A DNA stretch of 64,000 nt from Desulfatibacillum alkenivorans DSM 16219. Lineage in GTDB: Bacteria; Desulfobacterota; Desulfobacteria; Desulfobacterales; Desulfatibacillaceae. The notes beneath the pieces were generated by a model. It worked only from the letters and a program-made list of their open reading frames with translations, made no database searches and was not told where the DNA came from. The stretch lies in assembly GCF_900142135.1 (NCBI RefSeq), contig NZ_FQZU01000023.1, forward strand, positions 1-64,000, given 5' to 3'. This document shows positions 12,241 to 31,970 of the stretch, one piece after another. The position numbers were made by a program, and so were the translations under genes. The stretch's first letter is position 1. The number at the start of each line of letters is the position of its first letter.

Positions 12241-12293
12241 TTGACTTCTCGCATGCGATGTGAACAATCTTCTTGTGTTCAAAAAATGAACAC
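12241..12293 (+). promoter_or_regulatory. Duplicated leader with palindromic operator-like site, copy 2
   Basis: TTGACT (12241-12246) is followed at 16-17 bases by a weak -10-like AACAAT (12263-12268), then the perfect inverted repeat GTGTTCA-N5-TGAACAC (12275-12293), ending 25 bases before the ABC-transporter ATG. The same arrangement is seen at 4479-4531. The palindrome position just downstream of a promoter suits a repressor site. The factor is unknown. Confidence 0.45.
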
Positions 12294-12318
12294 TAAGCAA
12301 GGGCGCACCCGAAAGCAC

Positions 12319-14025
12319 ATGAAAAAAAAGAAAAGTACATTGGCGGTCATCAGTGATTTGACCGCCGGACACCGGAAAATGGGATTGTTCATTCTGTTGG
12401 TGATGGTTCTGGCCGCCTTTTTTGAGGCCTTGGGCCTGGGAATGATCCTGCCGGTGCTATCCCATCTCATGAGCCCCGAGTCCGCCCAGAGCGGGGCCAT
12501 GGGCGCGTTTGACAAAGTCCTGGCGGTTTTCCCCCAGGAACATAAGATGATCATCCTCCTGGGGGCTTTGCTGGCTGCCTTTTGGTTCAAGAACATTCTT
12601 GCCGCAGCTCTTCGGGGATTGAACGCCCATTTTACGTTCAAGCTGCGGGAAATATGGTCCACCAAGCTGCTTTATCAATATCTTCGTATGCATTACTCCC
12701 AGGTCCTGGAATCCAAACAGGGGGTTATGCTGCATAACGCCATTGTCGAGCCTAGGCAGGTGGCTTTTTCATTTCTAATTTTATTGCAGCTTGTGACAAA
12801 ACTGATTTTGTTCCTGGCTATCGCTTTGGTGCTGGTGGCGACCGATTGGAAGGTCACCCTGTGGCTGGCTGTTATTGTGGCGACCATTTTTGTCTCCATC
12901 AACAAGTTGATCACAACCTATTCCATCCGTTTCGGCAAGAAGCGATTGAAGATAGACCAGGAAACCAATTCCATCGGCGTGGAAAGTCTTGGCGCCGTCA
13001 AGGAGGTTAAGGCCCTTGGCATGGAAGGGCGGTATAAAGCCCTGTTAAAGGAAAGGATGGAACGGTACCGCCGCATTAATACGGCGTTCGCCATCGTGAA
13101 TCACCTGCCTGAAAACCTGATTGAAATATTGGCGGTCACCGGAGTGGTTTCCGTGTTCGGATACATTCATCTAACCGGTGCGACTCAGACCACGGACGTG
13201 CTGGCGAAGATGGGCTTTTTTGTCATTGCCGGGCAAAAAATGTTCAGTTGCGTTTCCTTTGTACTGGCTCAAAGAATGAAGTTCGCCTCCATGGAGCCCG
13301 GCATGTTTCTCATCTATGAAGCCATCCATCATCCGGAGGAAATGGAGGCGTTGGCCCAGGGGGAATCCTTCCGGAGCCTGGAGCAGGGAATTAAGCTGGA
13401 GCGTGTGGGCTTTTCCTATAGGACCGGAAGTCCGGTTTTAAAGGATTTTTCCATGGAAATTCCGGTGAATAAAATGACCGCCGTTATCGGGCCGTCCGGC
13501 GCTGGAAAATCCACCATCGCGGATTTGCTTTTGGGCCTCCATCACCCCCAGGAGGGACGGATTACGGTTGACGGTAGGGACTTGTCGGATTATTCCTTGA
13601 GGTCATGGCGGGCAAAAGTGGGCTACGTAGGGCAGGAGCCGGTGATCTTCAATGTGAGCATTCGGGAGAACATCCTGGCCGGCCGCCCTGGCGCCTCGGA
13701 GGATGAGGTGATTCAAGCCGCCCGGATCGCCCGAATCCATGATTTTGTTGGCACTTTGCCGCAAGGTTACGACACAATAGTGGGCGACCGCGGCGCAAAA
13801 TTGTCCGGCGGACAGAAGCAGCGCGTGGTTATTGCACGGGTGATCATCCGCAATCCGTATTTGTTCATCTTTGACGAAGCCACCAGCGCCCTGGACAGAG
13901 AAACCGAGGCGGAAATCACCGCCGCCATGGAGGACCTTGCAGGGCATAGAACGTTGTTGGTCATCGCCCACAGGTTGTCTACAATCAAAAAAGCGGATCA
14001 TGTGTACGACCTCTCAAAGGTATAA
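12319..14025 (+). CDS. ABC transporter, fused permease and ATPase (lipid-linked glycan flippase type)
   Basis: 568 residues. The N-terminal half has about six membrane helices (starting near MGLFILLVMVLAAFFEALGL). The C-terminal half is a complete ATPase: Walker A GPSGAGKST (391-399), Q-loop VGQEPVIFN, signature LSGGQKQR (495-502), Walker B LFIFDEATSALD (515-526) and switch VIAHRLST. The layout is that of MsbA/PglK half-transporters, which dimerise and flip lipid-linked saccharides. The ATG at 12319 gives MKKKKSTLAV; earlier in-frame starts (TTG 12241, ATG 12289) lie in the conserved leader. Its place in the locus suggests it exports the glycan made here. A decayed partial copy lies 7.7 kb upstream. 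Confidence 0.9.
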   Translation: MKKKKSTLAVISDLTAGHRKMGLFILLVMVLAAFFEALGLGMILPVLSHLMSPESAQSGAMGAFDKVLAVFPQEHKMIILLGALLAAFWFKNILAAALRGLNAHFTFKLREIWSTKLLYQYLRMHYSQVLESKQGVMLHNAIVEPRQVAFSFLILLQLVTKLILFLAIALVLVATDWKVTLWLAVIVATIFVSINKLITTYSIRFGKKRLKIDQETNSIGVESLGAVKEVKALGMEGRYKALLKERMERYRRINTAFAIVNHLPENLIEILAVTGVVSVFGYIHLTGATQTTDVLAKMGFFVIAGQKMFSCVSFVLAQRMKFASMEPGMFLIYEAIHHPEEMEALAQGESFRSLEQGIKLERVGFSYRTGSPVLKDFSMEIPVNKMTAVIGPSGAGKSTIADLLLGLHHPQEGRITVDGRDLSDYSLRSWRAKVGYVGQEPVIFNVSIRENILAGRPGASEDEVIQAARIARIHDFVGTLPQGYDTIVGDRGAKLSGGQKQRVVIARVIIRNPYLFIFDEATSALDRETEAEITAAMEDLAGHRTLLVIAHRLSTIKKADHVYDLSKV

Positions 14026-17433: not shown

Positions 17434-17486
17434 ATCGCCCCTAATGAAATTAATGGATGGATGGAAAGCGGCGAGGATATTTAAAT

Positions 17487-18215
17487 ATGAGTGAAGATTA
17501 CGAAATTCTCGGACTCATCCCGGCGCGGGGCGGCTCCAAGTCCTTGCATAAAAAGAATATTGCATTGTTGGGCGGCCATCCCCTTTTAACCTGGGTGGCC
17601 CGGGCCGGAAAGCAATCCCAAAGCCTGTCGCGCATCCTGTGCTCCACGGACGACGAGGATATTGCCTCGGTTTGCCGTGAGCACGACATAGAAGTCGCCG
17701 AGCGTCCCCCTGAATTGGGCCAGGACGACACCCACATCGTAGACGTGATGGTGGACCTGGTCAAAACCCTGGAGGAAAGGGAGGGCTATCGCCCCAAGGC
17801 CGTGGCCCTGCTGCAGCCCACCTCGCCCTTTTTGCTGGCAGAGCATGTTGACGATTGCTGCCGGGCGCTCATGGCCGATCCCAAGGCCCATTCGGCCCAG
17901 ACCATCAGCCGCTTTCCCTCCATTTTTCACGCCTTCAACCAAAGGATTATTGAGGACGAAGGCTACGTGCGCTTTCGCTACATGGAGGAGCGCAAGGTCT
18001 GCTACAACAAGCAGCGTAAGCCCGAGCATTTCATCCTGGGCAATTTCATCGTCACAACCACCGAGGCTTTGATTAACGAACGGGAAGTCTTCGCCCTGCC
18101 TTCCATACCCGTGGAGGTCCCCTATTCCTATGCCCTGGACGTGGACGGCCCCGAGGATTTTGAAACCGCTGAATGGTATTTGAAAAGCGGCAAGGTAAAG
18201 GGTTTTGATCTATAA
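17487..18215 (+). CDS. neuA: CMP-nonulosonate (acylneuraminate) cytidylyltransferase
   Basis: 242 residues from the ATG at 17487, which has GAGGA about 10 bases upstream; a longer frame with ATG at 17457 is possible. The signature PARGGSKSLHKKNI lies at residues 12-25, and LLQPTSPFLLAEHVDDCCRA gives the substrate-binding region. The family activates sialic-acid-like sugars with CTP. neuB and neuC homologues follow 1.1 and 2.1 kb downstream on the same strand. Which nonulosonate is used (Neu5Ac or another) cannot be set from this protein. Confidence 0.9.
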   Translation: MSEDYEILGLIPARGGSKSLHKKNIALLGGHPLLTWVARAGKQSQSLSRILCSTDDEDIASVCREHDIEVAERPPELGQDDTHIVDVMVDLVKTLEEREGYRPKAVALLQPTSPFLLAEHVDDCCRALMADPKAHSAQTISRFPSIFHAFNQRIIEDEGYVRFRYMEERKVCYNKQRKPEHFILGNFIVTTTEALINEREVFALPSIPVEVPYSYALDVDGPEDFETAEWYLKSGKVKGFDL

Positions 18216-18264
18216 ATTATAAGGCGGATCGCGTCTTAACCCCTATGAAAGAATGAGGCGTTTC

Positions 18265-19329
18265 ATGAAAGAAACGGATAAACAAAGCGCAAGCACTTAC
18301 GATTTTGTGCAGCAAACCGGCCGGGACAAGTATTTCGCCGCCAGGGACAGGGAGATCGCCCTGCTTTCCGACGGCGCCGGCGGCATCAAGCCCGAGTTCG
18401 CTGAGCCCGTGGAAAAATGCCCGGTCTGCGGCTGCGGCCAAAGCGAGCTATGGTTCAAAAAGCAGGGCTTTGAATTCCGGCGCTGCAAAAACACGTCTGT
18501 ATGCGGCCATATTTTCGGCAATCCCCAGATCAACGAAGACGCCCTGAACGACTGCTATCGCGGCGCGGGCGAAGGCGGCGAGTGCGCCGAGGTTTCCGCC
18601 AACGACCTGTGGATCGAGGTTCTGCTCTCCCAGGCCAACGCGTCATACGACAAAGGCAAGTACCAGCGCGGCATCGACGCCATGCAGACGGCTCTGGGAA
18701 CGGACAAGCCGGGCCGGGTTCTGGATATCGGCTGCTCCATCGGCCATTTTCTGGCCCTGGCCAAGGAAGCCGGCTGGGACGCCGTGGGCCTGGAACTGAA
18801 CGAAAAGGCCGTGGCTTATGCCACCAAGGAGCTTGGCCTGGACGTGCGCCCTCAGTTGCTGGACGAGGCCGGCTTCCCGCCCGAATCCTTTGATGTGGTC
18901 ACCCTCTGGGGCGTTATCGAGCACTTGAAACGGCCTGTTGAGGTAATCAGCCAGATCGCCGAAATCCTCAAACCCGGCGGCATCCTCCTGACCTTTTGCC
19001 CCAACGGCGCCAGCATGGTCTGCCGGGTCCTGCGGGAGCACGCAGCCACGTTCGACGGCCGGAACCATCCCTCCTACTTCACGCCCCAAAGCATCAAGTA
19101 CGTCATGGAGCAATCCGGGCTGGAAAATATAGCCATTTCCTTTCATCAGCCGGACCTGGACGCGGTGTTGAATTACCTGGAAGGCAGGGATCCTTACTTG
19201 CGGGATGAGCAGGAAAAAGGCCCTCTGCACGCATTCTTTTCCGGCGAAAACAGGCCCAAGGCCGAGGATTTCATCCGGGAAAACGGATACGGCTACAAGA
19301 TGATGACCTTAAACAGAAAGCCGGTATAA
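18265..19329 (+). CDS. SAM-dependent methyltransferase with zinc-ribbon-like N-terminus
   Basis: 354 residues. The cysteine-rich N-terminus KCPVCGCG (Cys52, 55, 57) with Cys74 and Cys80 looks like a zinc site. The SAM motif is RVLDIGCSIGHFLALAKEAG (151-170), followed by FDVVTLWGVIEHLKRP and LKPGGILLTFCPN, characteristic of class I methyltransferases (Methyltransf_23-like). GAGG lies six bases before the ATG at 18265, preferred over the ATG at 18253. It stands between neuA and neuB, so it may methylate the nonulosonate or a partner sugar. The acceptor is unknown. Confidence 0.82.
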   Translation: MKETDKQSASTYDFVQQTGRDKYFAARDREIALLSDGAGGIKPEFAEPVEKCPVCGCGQSELWFKKQGFEFRRCKNTSVCGHIFGNPQINEDALNDCYRGAGEGGECAEVSANDLWIEVLLSQANASYDKGKYQRGIDAMQTALGTDKPGRVLDIGCSIGHFLALAKEAGWDAVGLELNEKAVAYATKELGLDVRPQLLDEAGFPPESFDVVTLWGVIEHLKRPVEVISQIAEILKPGGILLTFCPNGASMVCRVLREHAATFDGRNHPSYFTPQSIKYVMEQSGLENIAISFHQPDLDAVLNYLEGRDPYLRDEQEKGPLHAFFSGENRPKAEDFIRENGYGYKMMTLNRKPV

Positions 19330-19338
19330 GAGGGCGCC

Positions 19339-20364
19339 ATGGCCTTTGAATTTGCCAATCAGTTTGAGATTGACGGACGCCCCGTGGGCGCCGGATGCCC
19401 GGTGTACATCATCGCCGAGGCGGGCGTGGCCCATTTCGGCAGTTTGAAAAAAGCCTATGACCTGGTGGATCTTGCCGTGGAAGCCGGAGCGGACGCCGTC
19501 AAGTTCCAGGTGTTTCAGGCGCGCAAACTCATCTCCAGCGCCTCCCGGGAATGGATCGACCGTTTGTCCTCCAGGGAGCTGCCTTACGATTCCTTTGTGA
19601 AAATCGCCCAATACTGCCGGGAAAAATGCATCACATTTTTCGCCACGGCCCACGACGAGCCCAGCCTGGACTTTTTGGATTCCCTGGAAACGCCTGTGTA
19701 TAAAATCGGATCGGGCGAAGTGGAAAACTGGCCCTTTATCCGCAAGGTCGCCCAAAAGGGCAAGCCGGTGATTTTATCCACGGGCATGTACACGGAAGAG
19801 CAAATGCAAGAGGCCGTGGACATCTTCGCCAAGGCGGGCAACCCCCAACTGGCCGTGCTTCATTGCGTCACGGCCTATCCCACGGCGCCCCGGCTGATCA
19901 ATCTCCGCGCTATCAAAGCCATTCAAGACATGGGCGTGATCGCCGGGTATTCGGACCACACCATGGGGTATCACATCCCTCTGGCCGCCGTGGCCATGGG
20001 CGCAGCCGTCATTGAAAAGCACATCACCCTGGATTACGACGTGCCCAACGCCCAGGACTGGAAAGTCTCCTGCGGGCCGGACGACCTGCATCTTTTTGTG
20101 GAGCAGGTCCGGGAGGTGGAGGAAAGCCTGGGCAGCGGGGCTAAAAGCCCCAATAAGGCCGAAAAGCAAAGCCTGGCCTGGGCCCGCAAAAGCATCGTCT
20201 CGGCCTGCGCCATCAGCGCCGGCCAGTGCATCACCGAAGACATGCTGGTGTGCAAAAGGCCCGGAACCGGCATTTCCCCCGCCGAATTTGAAAAGGTTCT
20301 GGGCAGGGAGGCGGCCGTTGACATCCGGGAAGACGAATTGATTACATGGGAGCAATTGCGTTGA
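19339..20364 (+). CDS. neuB: N-acetylneuraminate synthase family protein
   Basis: 341 residues, the usual NeuB length. The TIM-barrel part holds YIIAEAGVAHFGSLKKAYDL, VKFQVFQARKL, YKIGSGEVENWPF, ILSTGMYT, GYSDHTMGY and EKHITLD, all diagnostic of the family. The C-terminal part (about 285-341) is an SAF/antifreeze-like domain (VSACAISAGQCITEDMLVCK). The enzyme condenses phosphoenolpyruvate with an N-acylmannosamine-type sugar to give a nonulosonic acid. neuC follows at once, supplying the ManNAc-like precursor. Confidence 0.93.
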   Translation: MAFEFANQFEIDGRPVGAGCPVYIIAEAGVAHFGSLKKAYDLVDLAVEAGADAVKFQVFQARKLISSASREWIDRLSSRELPYDSFVKIAQYCREKCITFFATAHDEPSLDFLDSLETPVYKIGSGEVENWPFIRKVAQKGKPVILSTGMYTEEQMQEAVDIFAKAGNPQLAVLHCVTAYPTAPRLINLRAIKAIQDMGVIAGYSDHTMGYHIPLAAVAMGAAVIEKHITLDYDVPNAQDWKVSCGPDDLHLFVEQVREVEESLGSGAKSPNKAEKQSLAWARKSIVSACAISAGQCITEDMLVCKRPGTGISPAEFEKVLGREAAVDIREDELITWEQLR

Positions 20365-20366
20365 AA

Positions 20367-21515
20367 ATGAAACTATGCCTGGTCATCACTACGAGAGGCA
20401 ATTACGCCAAGGTCAAGTCCATCATACAGGCCGCGGAAAACGACCCGGACGTGGAACTGCAGATCATCGTGGGGGGCGGCGCCATTCTGGCCAAGTACGG
20501 CAACATCGCCGATTCCCTCACAACCATGGGCGTGAACGTGGATCGGCGCATCCATTTTCTGGTGGAAGGCGAAACCCCGGTCACCATGGCCAAAAGCGCC
20601 GGCTTGGCCGTCAGCGAGTTCACTACGGCTTTTGAAAACCTCCAGCCGGACGTGGTCATGGTCATCGCAGACCGCTTCGAATGCCTGTCCATCGCCATGA
20701 CCGCCTCGTACATGAATATCCCCGTGGCGCACATGGAAGGCGGCGAGGTTTCCGGCTCCATTGACGAAAGCATCCGCCACGCCATCACAAAACTCTCCCA
20801 TGTGCATTTCCCCGCCACCCGGGAAGCCGCGGACCGCATCATCAGAATGGGCGAAGCGCCCGAAACCGTGTTCCCCGTGGGCGCCACCAGTCTGGACGTC
20901 ATCGCCGGCCTGGATCTGGACAACCTGCAGCCGATTATGGAAAAGCAGGTTTCCGCAGGCGTGGGCGCCCGGGTGGACCTTGCCCAGCCTTATTTGACGG
21001 TCATCCAGCATCCGGTCACCACCGAGTACGCCGAAAATCTGGAGCACGTCAACCAGACCCTGAACGCCATCCACGAGCTGGGCATGGGAACTATATGGAT
21101 CTGGCCCAATATGGACGCGGGATCGGACGGCATATCCAAAGGCATCCGGATTTTTCGCGAGAAGCACGTGGACGCGCCCATGCACTTTTTCAAAAGCCTG
21201 CCCATCGAACATTACGCGCCCCTGCTTAAAAACGCCAAGGCCATTGTGGGCAATTCCTCCAGCGGCATTCGCGAGGCCGCCTTTCTGGGAACCCCCTGCG
21301 TGAACATCGGCTCCCGCCAGTCAGGCCGGGACCGGAGCAGCAACATTATCGACGTAGGCTACGACAAAGCCGAGATCAAAGCCGCCATCCAAAAACAGCT
21401 GGACCACGGCCGGTACGAAGAAAATCACATGTGGGGAGACGGCAAGGCCGGCCCGAAGATTTTGGAGATTTTAAAAACCTTTGATTTTACTATCCAAAAA
21501 CGGATTTGCTATTAG
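20367..21515 (+). CDS. neuC: UDP-N-acetylglucosamine 2-epimerase (hydrolysing) family protein
   Basis: 382 residues from the ATG at 20367; a TTG at 20361 with GGAG eight bases before it is an equally good start and would overlap the neuB stop. Family signs are HMEGGEVSGSIDESIRHAI in the active-site region, FPVGATSLDV, HPVTTEYA, and GNSSSGIREAAFLGTPCVNI near the C-terminus. The NeuC type hydrolyses UDP-GlcNAc while epimerising C2 to give ManNAc, the NeuB substrate. LegG/NnaA-type relatives act on diacetamido sugars, but no aminotransferase for that pathway is present here. Confidence 0.9.
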   Translation: MKLCLVITTRGNYAKVKSIIQAAENDPDVELQIIVGGGAILAKYGNIADSLTTMGVNVDRRIHFLVEGETPVTMAKSAGLAVSEFTTAFENLQPDVVMVIADRFECLSIAMTASYMNIPVAHMEGGEVSGSIDESIRHAITKLSHVHFPATREAADRIIRMGEAPETVFPVGATSLDVIAGLDLDNLQPIMEKQVSAGVGARVDLAQPYLTVIQHPVTTEYAENLEHVNQTLNAIHELGMGTIWIWPNMDAGSDGISKGIRIFREKHVDAPMHFFKSLPIEHYAPLLKNAKAIVGNSSSGIREAAFLGTPCVNIGSRQSGRDRSSNIIDVGYDKAEIKAAIQKQLDHGRYEENHMWGDGKAGPKILEILKTFDFTIQKRICY

Positions 21516-21531
21516 GAGCGCCGCCTTTTTT

Positions 21532-22914
21532 ATGCAAGACAAGCCGTACATATTCTTACCCGTTGAAACCAAAGTGCGGGAACTGCATTCCAAAACCTTG
21601 CTTGCCTGTTATGCGGCGGAAGCCGGGTTCTCCGTTGTATTGGGCCAGCAGGCGGAGCTTTTACGCCGCATTAAATTTCTTCCCGCCGGCATCTATGTGG
21701 AAAAGGGCGTGGCCCCCATGAAAGCGCCGGGAGTTCGCCTTCTAAAGGATCTTGGCCATAAGGTCGCCGCCTGGTGTGAAGAGGGGCTGGTCATTGTGGA
21801 TCAGGAAACCTACGCCAGGGACCGGGTTTCGGAGGAAGTGTTCTCCATGCTGGATGCTTTTTACGCCTGGGGCGAGGTCCAAGCGGGCGCCATTGCCCTG
21901 AAAATGGGGGATCAGACTGAAAAGACCGTAATCGCCGGCAATCCCCGGTTTGATCTGTTGCGGGAGCCGTATCGGATTATTTTTGAAAAGGACGCTCAAG
22001 ATATCCGATCCCGGCATGGCGAATTTTTGCTTGTGAACACCAACTTCGGCCTGTTCAATAATTTTTTTGGGCGGGATTATTTTGTGGAAAATCTCATGCG
22101 CCGCTATGGGCGCATTCAAGGCCCGGAGCACGAAGCCTTTCTGAAAGAATGGGTGGCCCATGTAGGCAGGGTTTTCGAGGCGTACAAGGCCTTTTTGCCG
22201 GCTCTCAGCAAAGCGTTTCCGAACCTGAAAATCGTCCTGCGGCCCCATCCGTCGGAAAATCACGAAGAATGGAAAGAGGCCGCCCGCGGCTTGTCCAATG
22301 TAGAGGTCATCCACCAAGGCAATGTCATCCCCTGGATATTGGCTTCCAGGGTCCTGGTGCATAATTCATGCACCACAGGAGTGGAATCCTATATACTCGG
22401 CAAACCCGTAGTCGCATATCGGCCGGTGCTTTCTCCCGTCTATGAGTATGAGTTGCCCAAAGCCGTCAGCATCTCCGCTTTTTCCCAAGAAGAAACAATT
22501 CAGGTGATCCAAGATTGTCTGGATGACAAACTCAAGACGGCGCCTGAGATCGCCGTGGGCCGAAAATACGCGAGAAACATTGACGGGCCGTACTCCTGCG
22601 AGACCATCGTCGAGTCATTAAAAGCTCTTGCCCAAGAAAGGCGTCCGGAATCTTATGGGGCCTTAAAAGCCGCCAGGGCGCGTTTGTCCTGGATAGCCAA
22701 AGACGGTTTGTATGGCGCAAAGGTAATGGTCAATAATCTGATCGGCCGCAAGGGAGAGTATCAGGAGTACGAAAAACAAAAAACCGGAGTCATCAAACAC
22801 AAGGAAGTGGAGGATATTATTCGCGCGTTCGCTCAATCTTCCGGGCTGTTTTCCTCCGTTCATGCAAAAACGCTCAATGGCGCTAAGATGTGTCTGAAGA
22901 TTACAAAAGACTAA
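21532..22914 (+). CDS. Surface carbohydrate biosynthesis protein (GT-B like)
   Basis: 460 residues from the ATG at 21532 (MQDKPYIFLPVETKVRELHS). The opening is typical of proteins annotated as surface carbohydrate biosynthesis proteins. NLKIVLRPHPSENHEEWKEA and a later VLVHNSCTTGVESYILGKPV match the nucleotide-sugar-binding loops of GT-B transferases. The last 130 residues are charged and may form a separate domain. It follows neuC with 16 bases between them and is similar in type to the gene at 15067. It may transfer the CMP-nonulosonate; this is inference. Confidence 0.72.
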   Translation: MQDKPYIFLPVETKVRELHSKTLLACYAAEAGFSVVLGQQAELLRRIKFLPAGIYVEKGVAPMKAPGVRLLKDLGHKVAAWCEEGLVIVDQETYARDRVSEEVFSMLDAFYAWGEVQAGAIALKMGDQTEKTVIAGNPRFDLLREPYRIIFEKDAQDIRSRHGEFLLVNTNFGLFNNFFGRDYFVENLMRRYGRIQGPEHEAFLKEWVAHVGRVFEAYKAFLPALSKAFPNLKIVLRPHPSENHEEWKEAARGLSNVEVIHQGNVIPWILASRVLVHNSCTTGVESYILGKPVVAYRPVLSPVYEYELPKAVSISAFSQEETIQVIQDCLDDKLKTAPEIAVGRKYARNIDGPYSCETIVESLKALAQERRPESYGALKAARARLSWIAKDGLYGAKVMVNNLIGRKGEYQEYEKQKTGVIKHKEVEDIIRAFAQSSGLFSSVHAKTLNGAKMCLKITKD

Positions 22915-22939: not shown

Positions 22940-23686
22940 ATGGATATGAGAGAAGTTAATAATAAAACGGGTCTTTTTCTGGAAACTATGGTCCGGCAGG
23001 GATTGTATGCGCATCCGAAAAGGCTGCAGTTCAAGATGAACAGGCTATTCCGGGATATTGATTTTCACGGCAAGCGAGTTTTGGACATAGGGGCCGGGGC
23101 GGGGCTATATACCTTTTATGCAGCCTGTCAGGGCGCGAAAGAAGTGGTCTCCATCGAACCGGAAGCAGACGGAAGCACCACCGGAGTGACGGAAAAGTTT
23201 TATTTTCTGCAACGGCAATTAGGCCTGGAAAACGTCACGCACAAGGCCGCGACTCTCCAGGATTTTGAAGCGGACGGCCGCGTCTTTGACGTCATCATGC
23301 TGTACGACTCTATCAACCACTTGGACGAAAACGCCTGCATTCATTTGCTGGAAGACCAGGAATCCTGGAATATTTATAAGAACTTATGTTCTAAGATTTT
23401 CCATATGGCCGGGCCGGGCGCAAAAATTATTGCCTGTGATTGCGGCAGAAACAATTTTTTCGATAAGATAAATATCACCAATCCTTTTGCGCCCTCCATA
23501 GAATGGCATAAGCACCAGAATCCTGAAACCTGGGTCAGGCTTCTAGCGGGCGCGGGTTTTACAAACCCAATTGTGCGTTGGCATCCCCCAAACATTTTGG
23601 GCGCCTTGGGCGACTCCCTGCTGGGAAATTCTGCGGCGGCCTATTTTTTTACTAGTCATTTTCAATTGAATATGGAAGCGTCCTGA
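22940..23686 (+). CDS. Class I SAM-dependent methyltransferase
   Basis: 248 residues. The SAM motif is RVLDIGAGAGLYTFYAACQG with the acidic VVSIEPEADGS after it, then FDVIMLYDSINHLDE as motif IV. AT-rich codons and Lys/Asn-rich stretches set it slightly apart from its neighbours, suggesting recent arrival in the locus. It lies between a surface carbohydrate protein and a GT4 enzyme. The acceptor is not known; a sugar O-methyl transfer is the simplest idea. Confidence 0.8.
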   Translation: MDMREVNNKTGLFLETMVRQGLYAHPKRLQFKMNRLFRDIDFHGKRVLDIGAGAGLYTFYAACQGAKEVVSIEPEADGSTTGVTEKFYFLQRQLGLENVTHKAATLQDFEADGRVFDVIMLYDSINHLDENACIHLLEDQESWNIYKNLCSKIFHMAGPGAKIIACDCGRNNFFDKINITNPFAPSIEWHKHQNPETWVRLLAGAGFTNPIVRWHPPNILGALGDSLLGNSAAAYFFTSHFQLNMEAS

Positions 23687-23692
23687 GGCAGA

Positions 23693-24868
23693 GTGGGAAA
23701 CTCCATAAGACATAAAACGGATAAAATTCGTTTGCTATTATTGGCCAGCGCCCTGGACGCCGGAGGCGCCGAACGGCAACTGGTCGCTTTGGCCAAAGCC
23801 CTGGACAAAGACGCCTTTGAGGTGACTGTCTGCCTTTTTTACGAACGCGGCCCTTTGCTCAAGGACCTGGAAAACCAGCCGGGAATCGATATTTTTCTGT
23901 TGAATAAAAAAGGCCGGTGGGATCTGTTTTCCGCCTGCGCCCGACTCATCAAGGAGTTTCGCCGCCGCCGCATCCAGGCGGTGTACTCTTTTTTGCCCGG
24001 CCCCAATATCTATGCAATCCCCTGCGCCAGGCTGGCCGGCGGAGTCAAAGTGATCTGGGGCGTCCGGGCCTCGGACAAGGACTTGAACAGTGCGGGCTGG
24101 TTCGCCCGCATGTTTTATTTTGTGGAAAAAAGCCTGTCCGGCTTTCCCCATCTGATCGTCTCCAACTCCCAGGCCGGAGCGGCCGACGTCATAGCCCGGG
24201 GATTTCCCCAGGCCAAGGTGGAGGTGATCCACAACGGTATCGACGCAGCCAGGTTCGTAAAAAACGCGCAAAAGGGCAGGGTGCTGCGGGAAAAATGGGG
24301 CGCGCCCGAGGGCTGCACCGTGTTCGGCGTGGTCGCTTCCTTAAGGCCCATGAAAGGCCATCGATATTTCCTGGAGGCGGCACAACTCGTTTCAAAACAA
24401 GAAGATGACGTGCGCTTTGTGTGCGTGGGCCCCAAGCCCGGCCCGGCCCGGCGGGAGTTTGAAGACCTGGCCGTCCGGCTGGACGTGGCCGGCAAAGTGA
24501 TCTGGGCCGGCCCTCACTCGGACATGCCGGCCGTCTACGGCGCTTTGGACGTCCTGGTGTCCTCCTCGGTGGAGCACGAAGGCTTTTCCAATTCCATCGG
24601 CGAGGCCATGAGCTGCTCGCTTCCCTGCGTGGTCACGGACGTGGGAGACTCCGCCCTTATTGTGGGGGATTGCGGGATTGCCGTTCCGCCCCGAGACTCG
24701 GAAAAACTGGCCCGGGGCATGCTGGAAATCAGGAAGCGCATTGCAATTGAACCTGATTTATGTCAAAAAAACAGGTCAAGAATTCAGGATAATTTCGATG
24801 TGAGCTTACTGGCCGACAGGACCGCCCAGGCCGTTCGCAAAGTCCTGGGCAAGGACGAAAGCCGGTAA
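23693..24868 (+). CDS. Family 4 glycosyltransferase
   Basis: 391 residues in the GT-B fold. The N-terminal glycine loop is SALDAGGAERQLVALAKALD, the acceptor domain carries SFLPGPNIYA, and the C-terminal donor domain has VVASLRPMKGHRYFLEAAQL, VCVGPKPG, and VLVSSSVEHEGFSNSIGEAM with the family E(x7)E motif. A GTG start at 23693 is likely. It transfers a sugar from a nucleotide donor with retention of the anomeric configuration. It is the last transferase before the CapD and sulfoquinovose-synthase-like genes, so it may use one of their products. Confidence 0.9.
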   Translation: MGNSIRHKTDKIRLLLLASALDAGGAERQLVALAKALDKDAFEVTVCLFYERGPLLKDLENQPGIDIFLLNKKGRWDLFSACARLIKEFRRRRIQAVYSFLPGPNIYAIPCARLAGGVKVIWGVRASDKDLNSAGWFARMFYFVEKSLSGFPHLIVSNSQAGAADVIARGFPQAKVEVIHNGIDAARFVKNAQKGRVLREKWGAPEGCTVFGVVASLRPMKGHRYFLEAAQLVSKQEDDVRFVCVGPKPGPARREFEDLAVRLDVAGKVIWAGPHSDMPAVYGALDVLVSSSVEHEGFSNSIGEAMSCSLPCVVTDVGDSALIVGDCGIAVPPRDSEKLARGMLEIRKRIAIEPDLCQKNRSRIQDNFDVSLLADRTAQAVRKVLGKDESR

Positions 24869-24882
24869 GAAAGGGTAGTTGC

Positions 24883-25962
24883 ATGGAGTCATTCCTTAAA
24901 GGAAAGAGGGTGTTGGTCACCGGAGCCTGCGGCACGGTGGGTTCGGAACTGGTGCGCCAGTTGTTGGAAGAGCATCAGGTGGAGGAGCTGATCGGCCTGG
25001 ACAACAACGAAAGCGAGTTGTTTTTCCTGGAGCAGCGTTTTCAGAAGAACGCCAACGGCCGTTTTTTTCTGGCCGACGTCCGGGACGAACACAAGCTGGC
25101 CCGCAAGATGCGCGGCGTCCACGTTGTTTTTCATTCCGCAGCCTTCAAGCACGTGATCCTCTGCGAAAAATCCCCCTTTGAAGCGGTCCGCACCAATATC
25201 ATGGGCGTGCAGAACATCATCACGGCCGCGGCCGACAACAAGGTGGAGCGGGTCATCTTCACCAGTTCGGATAAAGCCGTAAACCCCACCAACGTCATGG
25301 GCACTTCCAAGCTCATGGGCGAACGCCTCATGACCGCTGCCGACTCCAACTCCCGGGACGGCGGCCCCATTTATGCCTCCACCCGTTTCGGCAATGTGCT
25401 CGGCTCCCGGGGATCGGTCATCCCCATATTCCGGGAGCAAATCCGCAAGGGCGGCCCCGTCACCCTGACCGATCCCGGCATGACCCGCTTTATCATGAGC
25501 CTGCCCCAGGCCGTGCAGCTGGTGATCGACTCCGCCTCCCTGGCTTGCGGCGGCGAGGTCTTTGTCACAAAAATGCCCTCCATCAAAATCAGCGATCTGG
25601 CCCAGGTGATGATCGACGAACTGGCCGCAGAATTCGGCCGCGATCCCCAGTCCATCGAGATAGCAAACATAGGCATCAAGCCCGGCGAGAAAATGTACGA
25701 GGAATTGATGAGCCACGAGGAAACCCGCAGAGTGTGGGAGCTTCCCAAGTACTTTGCGGTGCTGCCGGCGTTCACCTCCTTGTATCGCGAGGTTTCCTAC
25801 GATTACCCCCAGGTGGCGGGTAAAACAGTGGACAACCCTTATAACTCAGGCATCGAGGAAAACATGAGCCGGGAAGCCCTGGCCGCCTTTTTAAAGGAAA
25901 ACAACCTGCTATTTGAAGGCGATAAGGGGAAAGAGCACCCGAGTCAGCGTTATTTTCCCTAA
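24883..25962 (+). CDS. CapD/FlaA1-like nucleotide-sugar 4,6-dehydratase (soluble form)
   Basis: 359 residues with the dinucleotide motif TGACGTVGSELV, SAAFKHV, and TSSDKAVNPTNVMGTSK, where Met replaces the usual catalytic Tyr as is normal in the long CapD/FlaA1 group. IGIKPGEKMYEELMSHEETR is diagnostic of the family. It lacks the four N-terminal membrane helices of long CapD proteins, so it is a soluble variant. Known members dehydrate UDP-GlcNAc to 4-keto-6-deoxy sugars, sometimes with C5 inversion. No aminotransferase follows, so the keto product may be reduced or epimerised instead. Confidence 0.87.
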   Translation: MESFLKGKRVLVTGACGTVGSELVRQLLEEHQVEELIGLDNNESELFFLEQRFQKNANGRFFLADVRDEHKLARKMRGVHVVFHSAAFKHVILCEKSPFEAVRTNIMGVQNIITAAADNKVERVIFTSSDKAVNPTNVMGTSKLMGERLMTAADSNSRDGGPIYASTRFGNVLGSRGSVIPIFREQIRKGGPVTLTDPGMTRFIMSLPQAVQLVIDSASLACGGEVFVTKMPSIKISDLAQVMIDELAAEFGRDPQSIEIANIGIKPGEKMYEELMSHEETRRVWELPKYFAVLPAFTSLYREVSYDYPQVAGKTVDNPYNSGIEENMSREALAAFLKENNLLFEGDKGKEHPSQRYFP

Positions 25963-26000: not shown

Positions 26001-27149
26001 ATGCGCGTTTTGATTTTAGGAGGAGACGGATATCTTGGATGGCCCACGGCCATGCAGCTTTCGGCCCTGGGCCACGAAGTGGCCGTGGTGGACAACTACC
26101 TGCGCCGGAACATCTGCCGCGAGATGGACGTCCGCCCCTTGTTTGAAGTCCCCTCCCTGGACGAACGGGCCGCAATCTGGAAGGAAAAATCCGGCAGGGA
26201 CGTAAAAGTCTTCATAGGCGACCTTATGGATTGGAGCTTTACCGCCGAGGTGTTTGAAAAAATCAAGCCCGAAACGGTCATCCATTACGCCGAGCAGCCT
26301 TCCGCGCCCTATTCCATGGCTAGCCGCCGGGCCGCAACCCTGACCCTGAAAAACAACCTGGAGGCCACGGCCAACACGATTTTTGCGGTGCGCGAGTTCG
26401 CCCGGGACGCCCATATCGTCAAAATCGGCACCATGGGCGAGTACGGCACTCCCAATATCGACATTGAAGAAGGCTGGATCGACATCGAGCACAAAGGCCG
26501 GTCCCAGAAGTTTTTGTACCCCCGCCAGGCCAGCAGCCTGTACCACACCACCAAGATCATGGACACGGACATGCTCTGGTTTTACGTGCGCATGTGGGGC
26601 CTCAGGGTGACGGACCTCATGCAAGGGCCGGTCTACGGCCTGATAACGGATGAGAGTCAGGACGACGAGCGGCTGTTTCCGTTTTTCAACTACGACGAGT
26701 TGTTCGGCACGGTCCTCAACCGGTTCATCGTCCAGGCCGTGGTGGGCTACCCTTTGACCGTGTATGGCTCCGGCGGCCAGACAAGGGGCTATTTGAACAT
26801 CAAGGACACCCTGAACTGCGTCCGGCTGTCTTTGGAAAATCCGCCAGAAAGACCGGACCTGCGCATCTTCAATCAGTTCACGGAGACTTTTTCGGTGAAT
26901 GAACTGGCGGAAAAAGTGCAGCGGGTCGGCAAGTCTCTGGGGCTGGACGTGGAGGTCAAATCCGTGCCCAATCCGCGCAAGGAGGCGGAGGAGCATTATT
27001 ATAATCCGTCGCACACGGGGCTTTTGGATTTGGGCCTTGAGCCAAATTTTTTAACAGATGATGTCATGGCGCAAATGATGGAAGTTGTCATGAAGCATAA
27101 GCACAATATTTACCGCGATTCCATTTTCCGGGGCGTCAAATGGGATTAA
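26001..27149 (+). CDS. UDP-sulfoquinovose synthase-like (SQD1/Agl3 family) SDR
   Basis: 382 residues, close to SQD1 length. The N-terminus MRVLILGGDGYLGWPTAMQL, the region VIHYAEQPSAPYSM, the block TMGEYGTPNIDIEEGWI (144-160) and the catalytic Y181-H-T-T-K185 follow SQD1/Agl3 closely, as do VYGLITDE, FGTVLNRFIVQAVVGYPLTV and GQTRGYLNIKDT. SQD1 builds UDP-sulfoquinovose from UDP-glucose and sulfite. GGAG is eight bases before the ATG. It closes the glycan operon. Sulfite is available in a sulfate reducer, so a sulfonated sugar in the surface glycan or lipid is plausible. The family call is strong; the precise substrate is inferred. Confidence 0.85.
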   Translation: MRVLILGGDGYLGWPTAMQLSALGHEVAVVDNYLRRNICREMDVRPLFEVPSLDERAAIWKEKSGRDVKVFIGDLMDWSFTAEVFEKIKPETVIHYAEQPSAPYSMASRRAATLTLKNNLEATANTIFAVREFARDAHIVKIGTMGEYGTPNIDIEEGWIDIEHKGRSQKFLYPRQASSLYHTTKIMDTDMLWFYVRMWGLRVTDLMQGPVYGLITDESQDDERLFPFFNYDELFGTVLNRFIVQAVVGYPLTVYGSGGQTRGYLNIKDTLNCVRLSLENPPERPDLRIFNQFTETFSVNELAEKVQRVGKSLGLDVEVKSVPNPRKEAEEHYYNPSHTGLLDLGLEPNFLTDDVMAQMMEVVMKHKHNIYRDSIFRGVKWD

Positions 27150-27177: not shown

Positions 27178-27206
27178 TTGACAAGATGATTTTTCAACGG
27201 TATCGT
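27178..27206 (+). promoter_or_regulatory. Candidate promoter of the IHF-like gene
   Basis: TTGACA (27178-27183), a 17-base spacer, and TATCGT (27201-27206), about 75 bases before the ATG. The -35 box is a perfect consensus and the -10 box matches 4 of 6. Confidence 0.5.
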
Positions 27207-27280
27207 TGATCCATCGTTGGACAAATGCTTGATAATTTTTGATAAACCAAGAGTATTGCGTTAACGGGAGCACCTTGCCA

Positions 27281-27574
27281 ATGGCACTTACCAAAGCTCA
27301 GATAGTGGAGGAAATCCACAACCAGTTAGGTCTTCCAGCAAAACAATGCGCCACCATGGTAGAGGACCTCCTTGAAATCATCAAGTCTTCCCTGGAAAAC
27401 GGTGACGATGTGTTGATTTCCGGTTTCGGAAAATTTCGCGTGCGCGACAAATCGCAACGCCGGGGAAGGAATCCTGCCACTGGCGACAGCATCATCCTTG
27501 ACGCCAGGAAGGTGGTTACCTTCACCTGTTCCGGGGTCCTTCGGGATCGCATTAATTCCAACGAAAAGGGGTAG
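27281..27574 (+). CDS. HU/IHF-family DNA-binding protein (IHF alpha-like)
   Basis: 97 residues, typical for the family. MALTKAQIVEEIHNQLGL gives the first helices, and ISGFGKFRVRDKSQRRGRNP, followed by ATGD, is the beta-arm signature that bends DNA. GGGAG lies about 11 bases before the ATG. The GFGxFxxRxKxxRxGRNPxTGE form is nearer IHF alpha than HU. It has its own promoter and separates the glycan locus from the next sugar gene. It may bend promoter DNA of local operons; this is inference. Confidence 0.9.
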   Translation: MALTKAQIVEEIHNQLGLPAKQCATMVEDLLEIIKSSLENGDDVLISGFGKFRVRDKSQRRGRNPATGDSIILDARKVVTFTCSGVLRDRINSNEKG

Positions 27575-27628
27575 TCTGCCCCGGGCAGGGCCTGTCATTT
27601 AGTCTCCGCTCGTTTTTTGTACGCAATT

Positions 27629-28579
27629 ATGAATCTGCCCAAGAAAGTTTTGGTCACTGGCGGAGCCGGGTTTTTAGGATCCCACCTGTGCGAGCGCTTG
27701 CTGAATGACTCCTGTGAAGTCCTGTGCGTGGACAATTTTTTCACGGGCTCCCGGCAAAACGTCCTGCATTTGATGGATAACCCCCGTTTCGAGCTCCTTC
27801 GTCACGATATCACCTTTCCCTTATACGTGCATGTGGATGAAATTTACAACCTGGCCTGTCCGGCCTCGCCCATCCATTATCAAAACGACCCGGTCATGAC
27901 CACCCGGGTGAACGTGCACGGCGCCATCAACATGCTGGGGTTGGCCAAAAGAGTGTCTGCGAAGATATTCCAGGCGTCCACCTCCGAGGTGTACGGCGAT
28001 CCTGAAATCCATCCCCAGCCTGAATCCTATTGGGGCCACGTGAATTGCGTGGGGCCCCGTTCGTGCTATGACGAAGGAAAACGCTGCGCCGAAACCCTGT
28101 TTTTCGACTATTACAGAGAACACGGCCTGAAGATCAAGGTGGCCCGCATCTTCAATACCTACGGCCCCCATATGCATCCCCAGGACGGCAGGGTGGTTTC
28201 CAATTTCATCATGCAAGCCTTGCGGAACGAGCCTATCACCGTGTACGGCGACGGCTCCCAAACCCGTTCGTTCTGCTATGTGGACGACCTGGTGGAAGGC
28301 TTTATCCGCCTCATGAATTCCTCCGACGAAGTGACCGGCCCCATGAACCTGGGCAACCCCGGGGAATTCACCATTCTGGAACTGGCGGAAAAGGTCATAT
28401 CAATCATTGGCTCCTCCTCCAAAATTTCCTTTTTGGACCTGCCTGCGGACGACCCGAAACAGCGCAAGCCGGACATCACCCTTGCGAAAGAGGTTCTGGA
28501 CTGGGAGCCCAAAATCCGCTTGGAGCAGGGCTTGCTAAAGACCATCGCCTATTTTGACAATCTGCTTTCCAGCTCCTGA
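27629..28579 (+). CDS. UDP-glucuronate decarboxylase (UDP-xylose synthase)
   Basis: 316 residues from the ATG at 27629. The dinucleotide motif is [10 protein letters not shown] and the catalytic motif is [11 protein letters not shown] (Y-D-E-G-K). [19 protein letters not shown] and [18 protein letters not shown] are diagnostic of the UXS group, as is the C-terminal [10 protein letters not shown]. The enzyme oxidises and decarboxylates UDP-glucuronate to UDP-xylose. A strong terminator follows. It may feed the glycan locus or the general sugar pool; a UDP-glucose dehydrogenase gene is not in the window. Confidence 0.93.
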
Positions 28580-29314: not shown

Positions 29315-31777
29315 CTATGCGCCGGCCCTTTTTCTGCGTCTGGTCATCAGCGCCAGGCATCCGGCAAGAAAAAGAGAGGCCGCGCCCAGGACGGCCCGGG
29401 TCTTTGCAGGCTGTTTTTCAAGGGATTCCACAAAGCATCCCCATAATTCATAGCGCTCAAATTCAGCCCACTTGTATGATCCCGCTCCCTTATACGTGGT
29501 TCCCTCCGACCCGCCGATTCCGTAGTAAGAAAAGCTGTCGGCCCTAAAGGTGACCCATCCGGTCTCTCCGTCGCCCAGGTAGTCGATGGCCAGGATGTCC
29601 GAGAGGGGCAGGTCATGGGCGTATGCCGTGGCCAGGTCAGCTCGGCTTACGCCTCTGCGCACATAATAGATGCCCGATTCAAAATCCCCAATATCCACGG
29701 TCAGCAGGTCAAAGGGGAGCGTCATGATGGCGCCGTAATCCCCTACGAGTTCGGCATTGCCATTGCCGTTGATGTCCGAACTCGTGCTGACGGTGGCCTC
29801 AAGCAGCCTCAAAGACCCGTTTGCGTAATTGCCGTAGCCATCCAAATAGTTGGCATCCTCCTTGCTCAAGGGCGTTTTTTCGGAGGTCATGGATATCTTC
29901 ACGGTGCTTGTGCCGGTCAGCACAGAGGTGTCCGTGAACCCTGGACGCATGTCCGCCTGAAAACGCAGCTCATCGTCCGAGTTTCTGATTTCAAAAGCCA
30001 CGCCGCCCAAGTACGTGGGGGCGGCCAGCACTTGGGGCGCTGGGCCTGAGGTCTGGACGATGGGCGCCAATTCCGCCTCTGCCACTTTATATTCCAACGG
30101 GGTTGCGGTTCCGTCCACGGTGGCTGTAGGCGGCAGATACTCCTGCATGTCCATGTCCATCTGGAAGGGAAGCTGGAGGCCGTCGGCCGGAAGCTCGGCG
30201 ATGCGGAAGATCTGGGCGGCCGAGTAATTTTGCGTATAGGCAATTAGCGAATAGCTTTGGCCAAGCGGCGCCTCGCCGGGAATGTCCAGGCGATAGGGTT
30301 GCGTGGTCAGCGTATTGGCGTAAACCACCTTGGTTTCGGCGATCACCTCTGCAGGGCTTTGGCCGTAATCCACCAGCGAAACGGTCACAATAGCTCCGTC
30401 CTCCAGGTTGCCGGTTCCCGGCGTGTAATCCAGGTTTCCGTAAATGTAGTTTTGCGCGTCCGCCGCTTCCAGGGTTATGCTTCCCCCCTCGTTGTCAAAG
30501 GATGCGGAGGTGAACAGCTTGGAGGCGAATCCGGGCGCATCGGCCTGAAAGTAGTATTTTTGCCCTTTAAGAAGGCTGAAGTTGAAGGCTCCGTCCGCTC
30601 CGGTGACATATTGGGCCTGGTATTGCTCGGGCGCAATCAGCAGGATTTCCGCGCCGTTTACGGGGTTCTTGCTTTCGTCCACTATCACCCCTTCTATGGC
30701 CGATCTGAGACGGATGGTGATGGGCCCGAGCCACACGTCGTAGATGTTGGTTTCGTAATTTCCGACGCTGTAGATCAGTTCCTCGCTGGCGTTGCCCCGA
30801 ATCCAGAAGCTGTTGGCCGAAGTGGGAGCCGTGGGCGGATGGTAGGTGATGACCAGGGAGCCGGATATGGGGGCGTTTCCGTTATCCAGGGTGATGCGTC
30901 CATATTCCGCGGGCAATCCTGTATACTCCGTGGAGCTTTCCGTGTTTTCAGCCATGATCTTGAAGGAATAGGTCATGGTGATGGGGTCGCCCGTGTCCGG
31001 GTCGCGGATGTAGTCCCCCGTCTCCGGATCGATGGGATGGGTGGGGGCGCCGGTTAGGGTGTAGGTGACCGGCGGGCTGTTTTCCTCCAGAAAAAAGTGT
31101 TCGCCGTCCAGCCACGCGAATTCGTAAAGCTCCACATTGTCCCGGCCTTCCGCCTCTTCCAGGGCCGCGCCGGTCAGGGAGTCGTCGATCACGCGTTTAA
31201 GCTGGTCGGAAACCCAGGCAGTATGGATGCCCGCAAATTCTCCGGTGGAAGGCGCCACAAATTCAAAGGGATCTGCAGCGGCAACGCCGGTGATGACCGA
31301 CTCAACCTGCAGGTTTGGGCCGATCACCGTCCATGTGTAGGGGGCCAAGCCGCTGGAAGCGGTCATTTCTTCGGTCAGGCCCGGGTAGTAGATAAGCCCG
31401 ATTTCTTCCTTGTCCTCCAGCACCACATGGGGGTAGACGTTTACAAACTCCATACTTTGAGCGCCGGAGCCGTCCGCCGCCGTCCAGACAATGATGTATT
31501 GGTCGTACGCCGAGGAAATGGATTTAGGCAAACGCCAGTACACGGTGGAGGCTGTCTCATCCGCACCCAGGACCGCGGTTCCGTCTTCGTCGGAGTAGAT
31601 TCTTGTGGTGGCCGGGCCTTCGCTGTACCAGGTTCCCGGCGCGTCCGCGATCACGGTGATGAGCTGTCCAACGCGGGCTTCACTTGGGCTGTATATAATG
31701 CCCGCCCAGGCTTGGGACGAAAAGAGGGTAAGGCAAAGGACAAACAAAACGCCGGTGAGTTTCGCCTTTTTTTTCAT
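29315..31777 (-). CDS. Large exported protein with carboxypeptidase-regulatory-like domain and C-terminal membrane anchor
   Basis: 820 residues from the ATG at 31777 (GAAGAG upstream; a GTG two codons earlier is less likely). It has a clear signal peptide (MKKKAKLTGVLFVLCLTLFS, cleaved after about SSQAWA). The middle (about 355-430) contains IEGVIVDESKNPVNGAEILL and GADGAFNFSLLKGQKYYFQA, a CarboxypepD_reg-like beta-sandwich. The rest is Thr/Ser/Gly/Asp-rich and probably beta structure. The C-terminus is one hydrophobic helix (VLGAASLFLAGCLALM) followed by RRRKR, like envelope sorting tails, though no known sorting motif is recognised. Function is unknown. It is likely a surface or periplasmic adhesin-like protein. 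Confidence 0.78.
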   Translation of the reverse strand: MKKKAKLTGVLFVLCLTLFSSQAWAGIIYSPSEARVGQLITVIADAPGTWYSEGPATTRIYSDEDGTAVLGADETASTVYWRLPKSISSAYDQYIIVWTAADGSGAQSMEFVNVYPHVVLEDKEEIGLIYYPGLTEEMTASSGLAPYTWTVIGPNLQVESVITGVAAADPFEFVAPSTGEFAGIHTAWVSDQLKRVIDDSLTGAALEEAEGRDNVELYEFAWLDGEHFFLEENSPPVTYTLTGAPTHPIDPETGDYIRDPDTGDPITMTYSFKIMAENTESSTEYTGLPAEYGRITLDNGNAPISGSLVITYHPPTAPTSANSFWIRGNASEELIYSVGNYETNIYDVWLGPITIRLRSAIEGVIVDESKNPVNGAEILLIAPEQYQAQYVTGADGAFNFSLLKGQKYYFQADAPGFASKLFTSASFDNEGGSITLEAADAQNYIYGNLDYTPGTGNLEDGAIVTVSLVDYGQSPAEVIAETKVVYANTLTTQPYRLDIPGEAPLGQSYSLIAYTQNYSAAQIFRIAELPADGLQLPFQMDMDMQEYLPPTATVDGTATPLEYKVAEAELAPIVQTSGPAPQVLAAPTYLGGVAFEIRNSDDELRFQADMRPGFTDTSVLTGTSTVKISMTSEKTPLSKEDANYLDGYGNYANGSLRLLEATVSTSSDINGNGNAELVGDYGAIMTLPFDLLTVDIGDFESGIYYVRRGVSRADLATAYAHDLPLSDILAIDYLGDGETGWVTFRADSFSYYGIGGSEGTTYKGAGSYKWAEFERYELWGCFVESLEKQPAKTRAVLGAASLFLAGCLALMTRRRKRAGA

Positions 31778-31970
31778 GTGCACTCTTCTTTTTTTACAGG
31801 TTGATTATGGTCCGGAATCGCGGCATCCACCCTGATAACCGCTATCGCCGCCGCCCAAGGCAAGGCCTATATAACCAGGAGCGGAGGTTTTTATAATGAT
31901 TCCAATTTTATATGACAGGCATCCATGTTTTGCAAGGATTTTTTGTATTTTTCGGCAATAGCCAAAAAGG

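Follow-up and report, generated by a model that had tools for sequence, protein, structure and literature searches.

The window analysed here, 64,000 nucleotides of Desulfatibacillum alkenivorans DSM 16219 (contig NZ_FQZU01000023.1, positions 1 to 64,000), carries a gene, termed S, whose predicted product is an SQD1-type enzyme of a distinct, partnered branch that was not described in the literature searched. The partner is a short dehydratase gene, termed D, and it is a near-obligate neighbour of the S subclade. The initial annotation had called S UDP-sulfoquinovose-synthase-like. A UDP-sulfoquinovose synthase is a possible reading; S was not filed under that name, since one catalytic residue and one placement speak against it. 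Tentatively, D and then S would form a two-enzyme route to one special UDP-sugar for surface polysaccharide, with sulfite addition as the likeliest chemistry.

The SQD1-type gene and its glycan locus

S starts with ATG, preceded by GGAG about 8 nt upstream, and its product was 50% identical to Arabidopsis SQD1 (AtSQD1) over the full length, a match which ruled out a chance ORF. The best solved relative was SQD1 (E 1.4e-132, residues 2-381), which led the next solved family (5e-11) by about 120 orders of magnitude. An AlphaFold2 model (17-sequence, pLDDT 85) was compared by Foldseek, and the predicted fold matched 1qrr and 1i24, both SQD1, with a TM of 0.96, while the next folds, other SDRs, reached about 0.7. 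The motifs TMGEYGTPNIDI, YHTTK and GQTRGY, quoted earlier as marks of an SQD1/Agl3-like enzyme, were all found in the protein, and this part of the initial annotation is well founded. With SQD1, SqdB and Agl3, S shares the predicted fold, the length, the NAD motif GGDGYLGW, the TMGEYGTPNIDIEE loop, the YHxxK dyad and most active-site residues. The NCBIfam model for UDP-sulfoquinovose synthase (NF041015) has a cut-off of 575 bits, and S (449), AtSQD1 (483) and Sinorhizobium meliloti SqdB (332) all scored below it; because proven enzymes also miss the cut-off, the score alone cannot decide whether S is an SQD1 orthologue. At 575 bits the model would name just a narrow set of proteins, probably archaeal.

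S is the sole close copy of such a gene in the 6.47-Mb genome, and relatives with 90% identity were present in a Desulfatibacillum MAG (L032) and in a genome of the same genus (G001). For the host dsrA the score was 615 bits (cut-off 393), in agreement with the probable sulfate reducer proposed from the sequence. A defence-system role was considered and dropped, with no PADLOC match.

Table 1. Genes of the glycan locus around S, and the Pro100 codon, in the window
Feature	Position	Strand	Basis or remark
ABC exporter	12241..14025	+	same-strand glycan-gene run ending with S
CMP-sugar (PseF/NeuA-like) cytidylyltransferase	17457..18215	+	
SAM methyltransferase	18253..19329	+	
NeuB-family nonulosonate synthase	19339..20364	+	under equivalog cut-offs
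NeuC/NnaA-type UDP-GlcNAc 2-epimerase	20346..21515	+	418 bits, cut-off 236
TIGR04396 surface carbohydrate biosynthesis protein	21481..22914	+	426 bits, cut-off 125
SAM methyltransferase-like protein	22940..23686	+	
GT4 glycosyltransferase	23693..24868	+	best NCBIfam relative TIGR03088, under cut-off
D, short soluble PF02719 dehydratase (359 aa)	24883..25962	+	stops 38 nt before S
S, SQD1-type extended SDR, Pro-type (382 aa)	26001..27149	+	ORF, homology, residues, model
Pro100 codon (CCT), SQD1 Arg101 position	26298..26300	+	sequence and alignment
UXS/dehydratase-like SDR	27617..28579	+	downstream of S, beyond HU gene

S is the final gene of a same-strand glycan run (Table 1) that includes GT2 and GT4 glycosyltransferases. 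With NeuC, a NeuB-family protein, the CTP transferase, TIGR04396, methyltransferases and the ABC exporter also present, the locus is rightly called a surface-glycan locus. No SQDG-type gene was recognised beside S, as had been remarked for a plant-like SQDG synthase, and in this the surroundings of S differ from those of SQD1, SqdB and Agl3. NeuB, NeuC and NeuA were considered as parts of a module with D and S and were dropped, being found in 4 to 7 of 62 D-S neighbourhoods only.

Some further features were observed around the locus and in similar loci. S and the UXS-like SDR are separated by a gene for an HU-type DNA-binding protein (27239-27574), which has a promoter-like sequence of its own, TTGACA-17-TATCGT, at 27178. 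Downstream of this locus, an 822-aa protein with a carboxypeptidase-regulatory-like domain is encoded on the minus strand (29315-31783); it is probably exported, and at its C-terminal end a hydrophobic stretch precedes RRRKRAGA. In another genome, locus L263 (G064:C1:67406-82938) held in one run NeuB, NeuC, an unknown protein, a CMP transferase, a second Pro-type SQD1-like gene, a B12/radical-SAM-like protein of about 700 aa, D and S. The order NeuB, NeuC, CMP transferase, SQD1-like gene and radical SAM recurred without D and S in L262 and L261, the latter alphaproteobacterial, and these three loci hint at another use of SQD1-like enzymes in nonulosonic-acid loci.

The Arg/Pro position and the family tree

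Residues were numbered by an alignment to AtSQD1 which placed T145, Y182 and K186 on their published numbers. The catalytic Thr145, Tyr182 and Lys186 of SQD1 were conserved in S, and nine of the residues with published tests in SQD1 or Agl3 were kept (H95, T144, M145, E147, Y148, S179, Y181, T184 and K185 in window numbering), as they were in nearly all clade members. At the position of Arg101 S has Pro100, so that EQRSAPYSM of SQD1 reads EQPSAPYSM. In Agl3, whose Arg101 and nearby residues are known here just from the primers in PMC4388408, the R101A mutant was inactive, and the same paper gives mutational data for other active-site residues. S also differs from SQD1, SqdB and Agl3 at the DLNQG motif, where Met replaces Asn. 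Among the aligned relatives, position 101 was Arg in 53/53 sequences of one group and Pro in 128/128 of the other (95/95 and 33/33), and it was the sole position fixed differently between both groups; outside them, L209 had His and one fragment had a gap.

In a maximum-likelihood tree of 118 rows the Arg/Pro change fell on a single branch (0/500 shuffles gave as few changes; SH-aLRT 94), and the split persisted with SH-aLRT 88 when long branches were removed and the Arg column was masked. L112, an SqdB-type gene of S. meliloti that adjoins a glycosyltransferase gene, was on the Arg side together with Arabidopsis SQD1. S was on the Pro side, in a clade of 36 rows linked to D, with a support of 99, or 100 in the masked tree without long branches. 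The phylogeny called for by the initial annotation thus placed S outside the clade that AtSQD1 shares with S. meliloti SqdB, in quick trees which carry SH-aLRT support only and whose rows do not include Agl3.

The S-type clade was spread over Desulfobacterota, Alpha-, Gamma- and Betaproteobacteria, Nitrospirae, Chloroflexi, Planctomycetes and Actinomycetota, with D directly adjacent there. It also occurs in aerobes, so the special tie to sulfite-rich anaerobes that had been suggested for S is not upheld.

Other branches of the family were observed as well. Six Pro/Met-type genes (L028, L130, L133, L135, L210 and L217) from several Desulfobacterota and other genomes formed a separate branch without D, with a support of 97 and 43-46% identity to S. 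Eleven contigs of the viral collection IMG/VR (L004-L014) carried SQD1-like genes, putative phage genes of 45-51% identity and of both Pro/Asn and Arg/Asn types, and D adjoined none of them. Some Arg-type genes (L268, L271 and L272) had a lipid-type GT4 immediately after them; glycolipid synthases are among its best NCBIfam relatives (weak scores), and we take it to resemble SqdX.

The dehydratase partner

D matched PF02719 with 330 bits (cut-off 20), and its nearest solved relative was 6bwc (E 3e-82), which is Pen, a UDP-GlcNAc 5,6-dehydratase (PMC8987622). The motif SSDKAVNPTNVMGTSK of D is of the WbpM/PglF type, with Met where the catalytic Tyr would be. All D partners (85/85) had S[S/T]DK...MG followed by Lys four residues past Met, and [S/T]DK...Mx3K without the catalytic Tyr is the WbpM/PglF signature among the motif classes of PMC8987622. 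D differs from WbpM and PglF in being short and soluble, without a membrane domain, and in being tied to S. An assignment to the inverting dehydratase PseB was rejected, as TIGR03589 gave 281 bits against a cut-off of 408 and Met replaces the catalytic Tyr. D is thus predicted to be a WbpM/PglF/Pen-like dehydratase of the UDP-GlcNAc type, with UDP-GlcNAc as the predicted substrate.

When the neighbours of S relatives were clustered, one gene recurred directly upstream of S, and it was the D homologue. By tblastn, 83/98 S-clade members had a same-strand D no more than 2.6 kb away (the partner table has 99 rows and includes L189, which the tree puts outside the clade). Under the same search D was near 0/53 Arg-type and 0/29 other Pro-type relatives, of which 47 and 26 respectively had enough upstream DNA. 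Relative to the S start, most D genes (70/84) lay between -900 and -1300 nt. Fifteen clade members had no D nearby: three lacked upstream DNA, two were on short contigs, eight (L050, L059, L063, L069, L136, L215, L216 and L218) had D elsewhere on the same contig, farther away or on the opposite strand, and in G176 and G306 the whole genome assembly yielded none at E <= 1e-60. A fixed set of 247 Desulfobacterota genomes was sampled as well: D, called at 375 bits or more (the next best match had 289), was found in 11, all with S, which itself was in 12 (Fisher p 3e-18). No D match of any kind was found in 27 genomes picked for an Arg-type gene, and 19 genomes with other Pro-types had just distant D paralogues of about 211-219 bits.

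That D and S were joined by descent only, as passengers of mobile glycan cassettes with unrelated functions, seems very improbable. Glycan loci are often shuffled and transferred, and the distances of D and S were just moderately correlated (r 0.40), yet 0/2000 permutations were as high; against it, D was never found without S in the 247 genomes, it was directly beside S from Desulfobacterota to Actinomycetota, and where the order was broken it was usually still on the same contig. D and S probably share one pathway.

A separate clade tied to a dehydratase gene sets S apart from SQD1 and SqdB, and this bears on whether S is a true UDP-sulfoquinovose synthase, which would use UDP-glucose and sulfite to supply sulfoquinovose for a surface glycan, with D making a second sugar as a precursor of QuiNAc or FucNAc. 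The full-length identity to SQD1, the close match of the predicted fold, the other catalytic residues and an NF041015 score near that of AtSQD1 are consistent with such an enzyme, and the host dsrA would make sulfite available. The reading is weakened because no Pro-side sequence has Arg101, though R101A inactivates Agl3, and because the clade is bound to a UDP-GlcNAc-type dehydratase; S also falls outside the clade with AtSQD1 and S. meliloti SqdB, an exclusive partner across phyla is hard to square with two independent sugars, and several hosts already have an Arg-type enzyme. Four genomes (Rubrobacter marinus, Mesorhizobium albiziae, Pararhizobium mangrovi and Histidinibacterium aquaticum) contained both an Arg-type and a D-linked Pro-type gene, which suggests that the two types differ in their job. 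A true synthase was therefore regarded as unlikely, and S probably makes a surface sugar other than the ordinary plant-type one.

A third SDR gene, E2, followed S in about 20 of 80 fetched loci, or about a quarter, usually less than 120 nt past S and often overlapping its stop codon, and the E2 products were 47-65% identical to the L109 copy. E2 was nearest to 4-epimerases, matching WbpP and GalE (UDP-GlcNAc/UDP-glucose) best. Unlike these loci, the window has the HU gene and the UXS-like gene after S, and the latter is not E2, having about 30% identity to the 4-epimerase of the relatives. No sulfite-supplying gene conserved beside the D-S pair was found by neighbour clustering, and no description of the pair was found in the literature searched.

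A candidate route from D to S

Agl3 works in two steps, converting UDP-glucose into UDP-glucose-5,6-ene and then adding sulfite (PMC4388408), so that an SQD1-type enzyme could plausibly use a 5,6-ene made by a dehydratase. As D lies beside such an enzyme, D may make the dehydrated sugar and S may complete the reaction. D would oxidise a UDP-GlcNAc-type sugar at C4 and eliminate its O6, and the resulting intermediate would be a 4-keto-6-deoxy sugar or a 5,6-ene. With its SQD1 fold and catalytic centre and Pro for Arg101, S would act on this intermediate at C4-C6, and the likeliest chemistry would be the addition of sulfite onto C6, yielding UDP-6-sulfo-6-deoxy-HexNAc, a relative of UDP-sulfoquinovose; where E2 is present, the 4-epimerase-like SDR would come next. 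D is favoured as the first of the two enzymes, since a sugar already sulfonated at C6 would have no O6 left for D to remove. The parts of this scheme are held with different strength: a sulfonated product may be expected at slightly less than even chances, much the same holds for an amino sugar as the substrate of the pair, and an undescribed, widely transferred route to a sulfonated amino sugar, with S adding sulfite to give UDP-6-sulfo-6-deoxy-HexNAc, is doubtful when all its parts are taken together.

A known parallel is the Pen/Pal pair of Bacillus thuringiensis, in which a dehydratase and then a second SDR also serve one nucleotide-sugar pathway; it differs in that D has Met in place of the catalytic Tyr of Pen and in that the second enzyme here is SQD1-like and not Pal-like. 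S could likewise follow D as Pal follows Pen, as a non-sulfonating reductase, epimerase or isomerase which acts on the 4-keto-6-deoxy-HexNAc of D to give UDP-QuiNAc, UDP-FucNAc or a 5-epimer. Enzymes of the class of D feed 4-keto-6-deoxy sugars to a second enzyme, Arg101 is lost, the pair occurs in many hosts without a sulfite-rich lifestyle, and QuiNAc and FucNAc are common sugars in bacteria. S nevertheless keeps the other SQD1/Agl3 residues, the TMGEY loop among them, for which a plain reductase would have no need, and it is far from Pal (E 0.0027, one local stretch), so a non-sulfonating S was considered rather unlikely.

The main counterpoints to sulfite addition by S after D are the Pro-types without D and the WbpM-like Met of D. 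As other Pro-types have no D nearby, Pro100 alone does not mean that the dehydration step was lost, and for the same reason a takeover of dehydration by D was rejected as the sole explanation for the loss of Arg. D has SDK...Mx3K and not the Tyr of Pen, and enzymes of the WbpM/PglF type proceed to the 4-keto-6-deoxy sugar, without a 5,6-ene for sulfite. S, with the other SQD1/Agl3 residues intact, could also do the whole reaction alone on UDP-glucose.

Bacterial SQD1-like genes are annotated as UDP-sulfoquinovose synthase by similarity, and Arg or Pro at position 101 together with the D gene gives a simple key for sorting this family. If the Pro-types do something else, genome counts of sulfoquinovose producers would be wrong. 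If they sulfonate, sulfonated sugars beyond the sulfolipids would be far wider than the few known archaeal N-glycans, and if sulfonation by the D-S pair is true, sulfonated sugars would be common in the surface glycans of many bacterial phyla.
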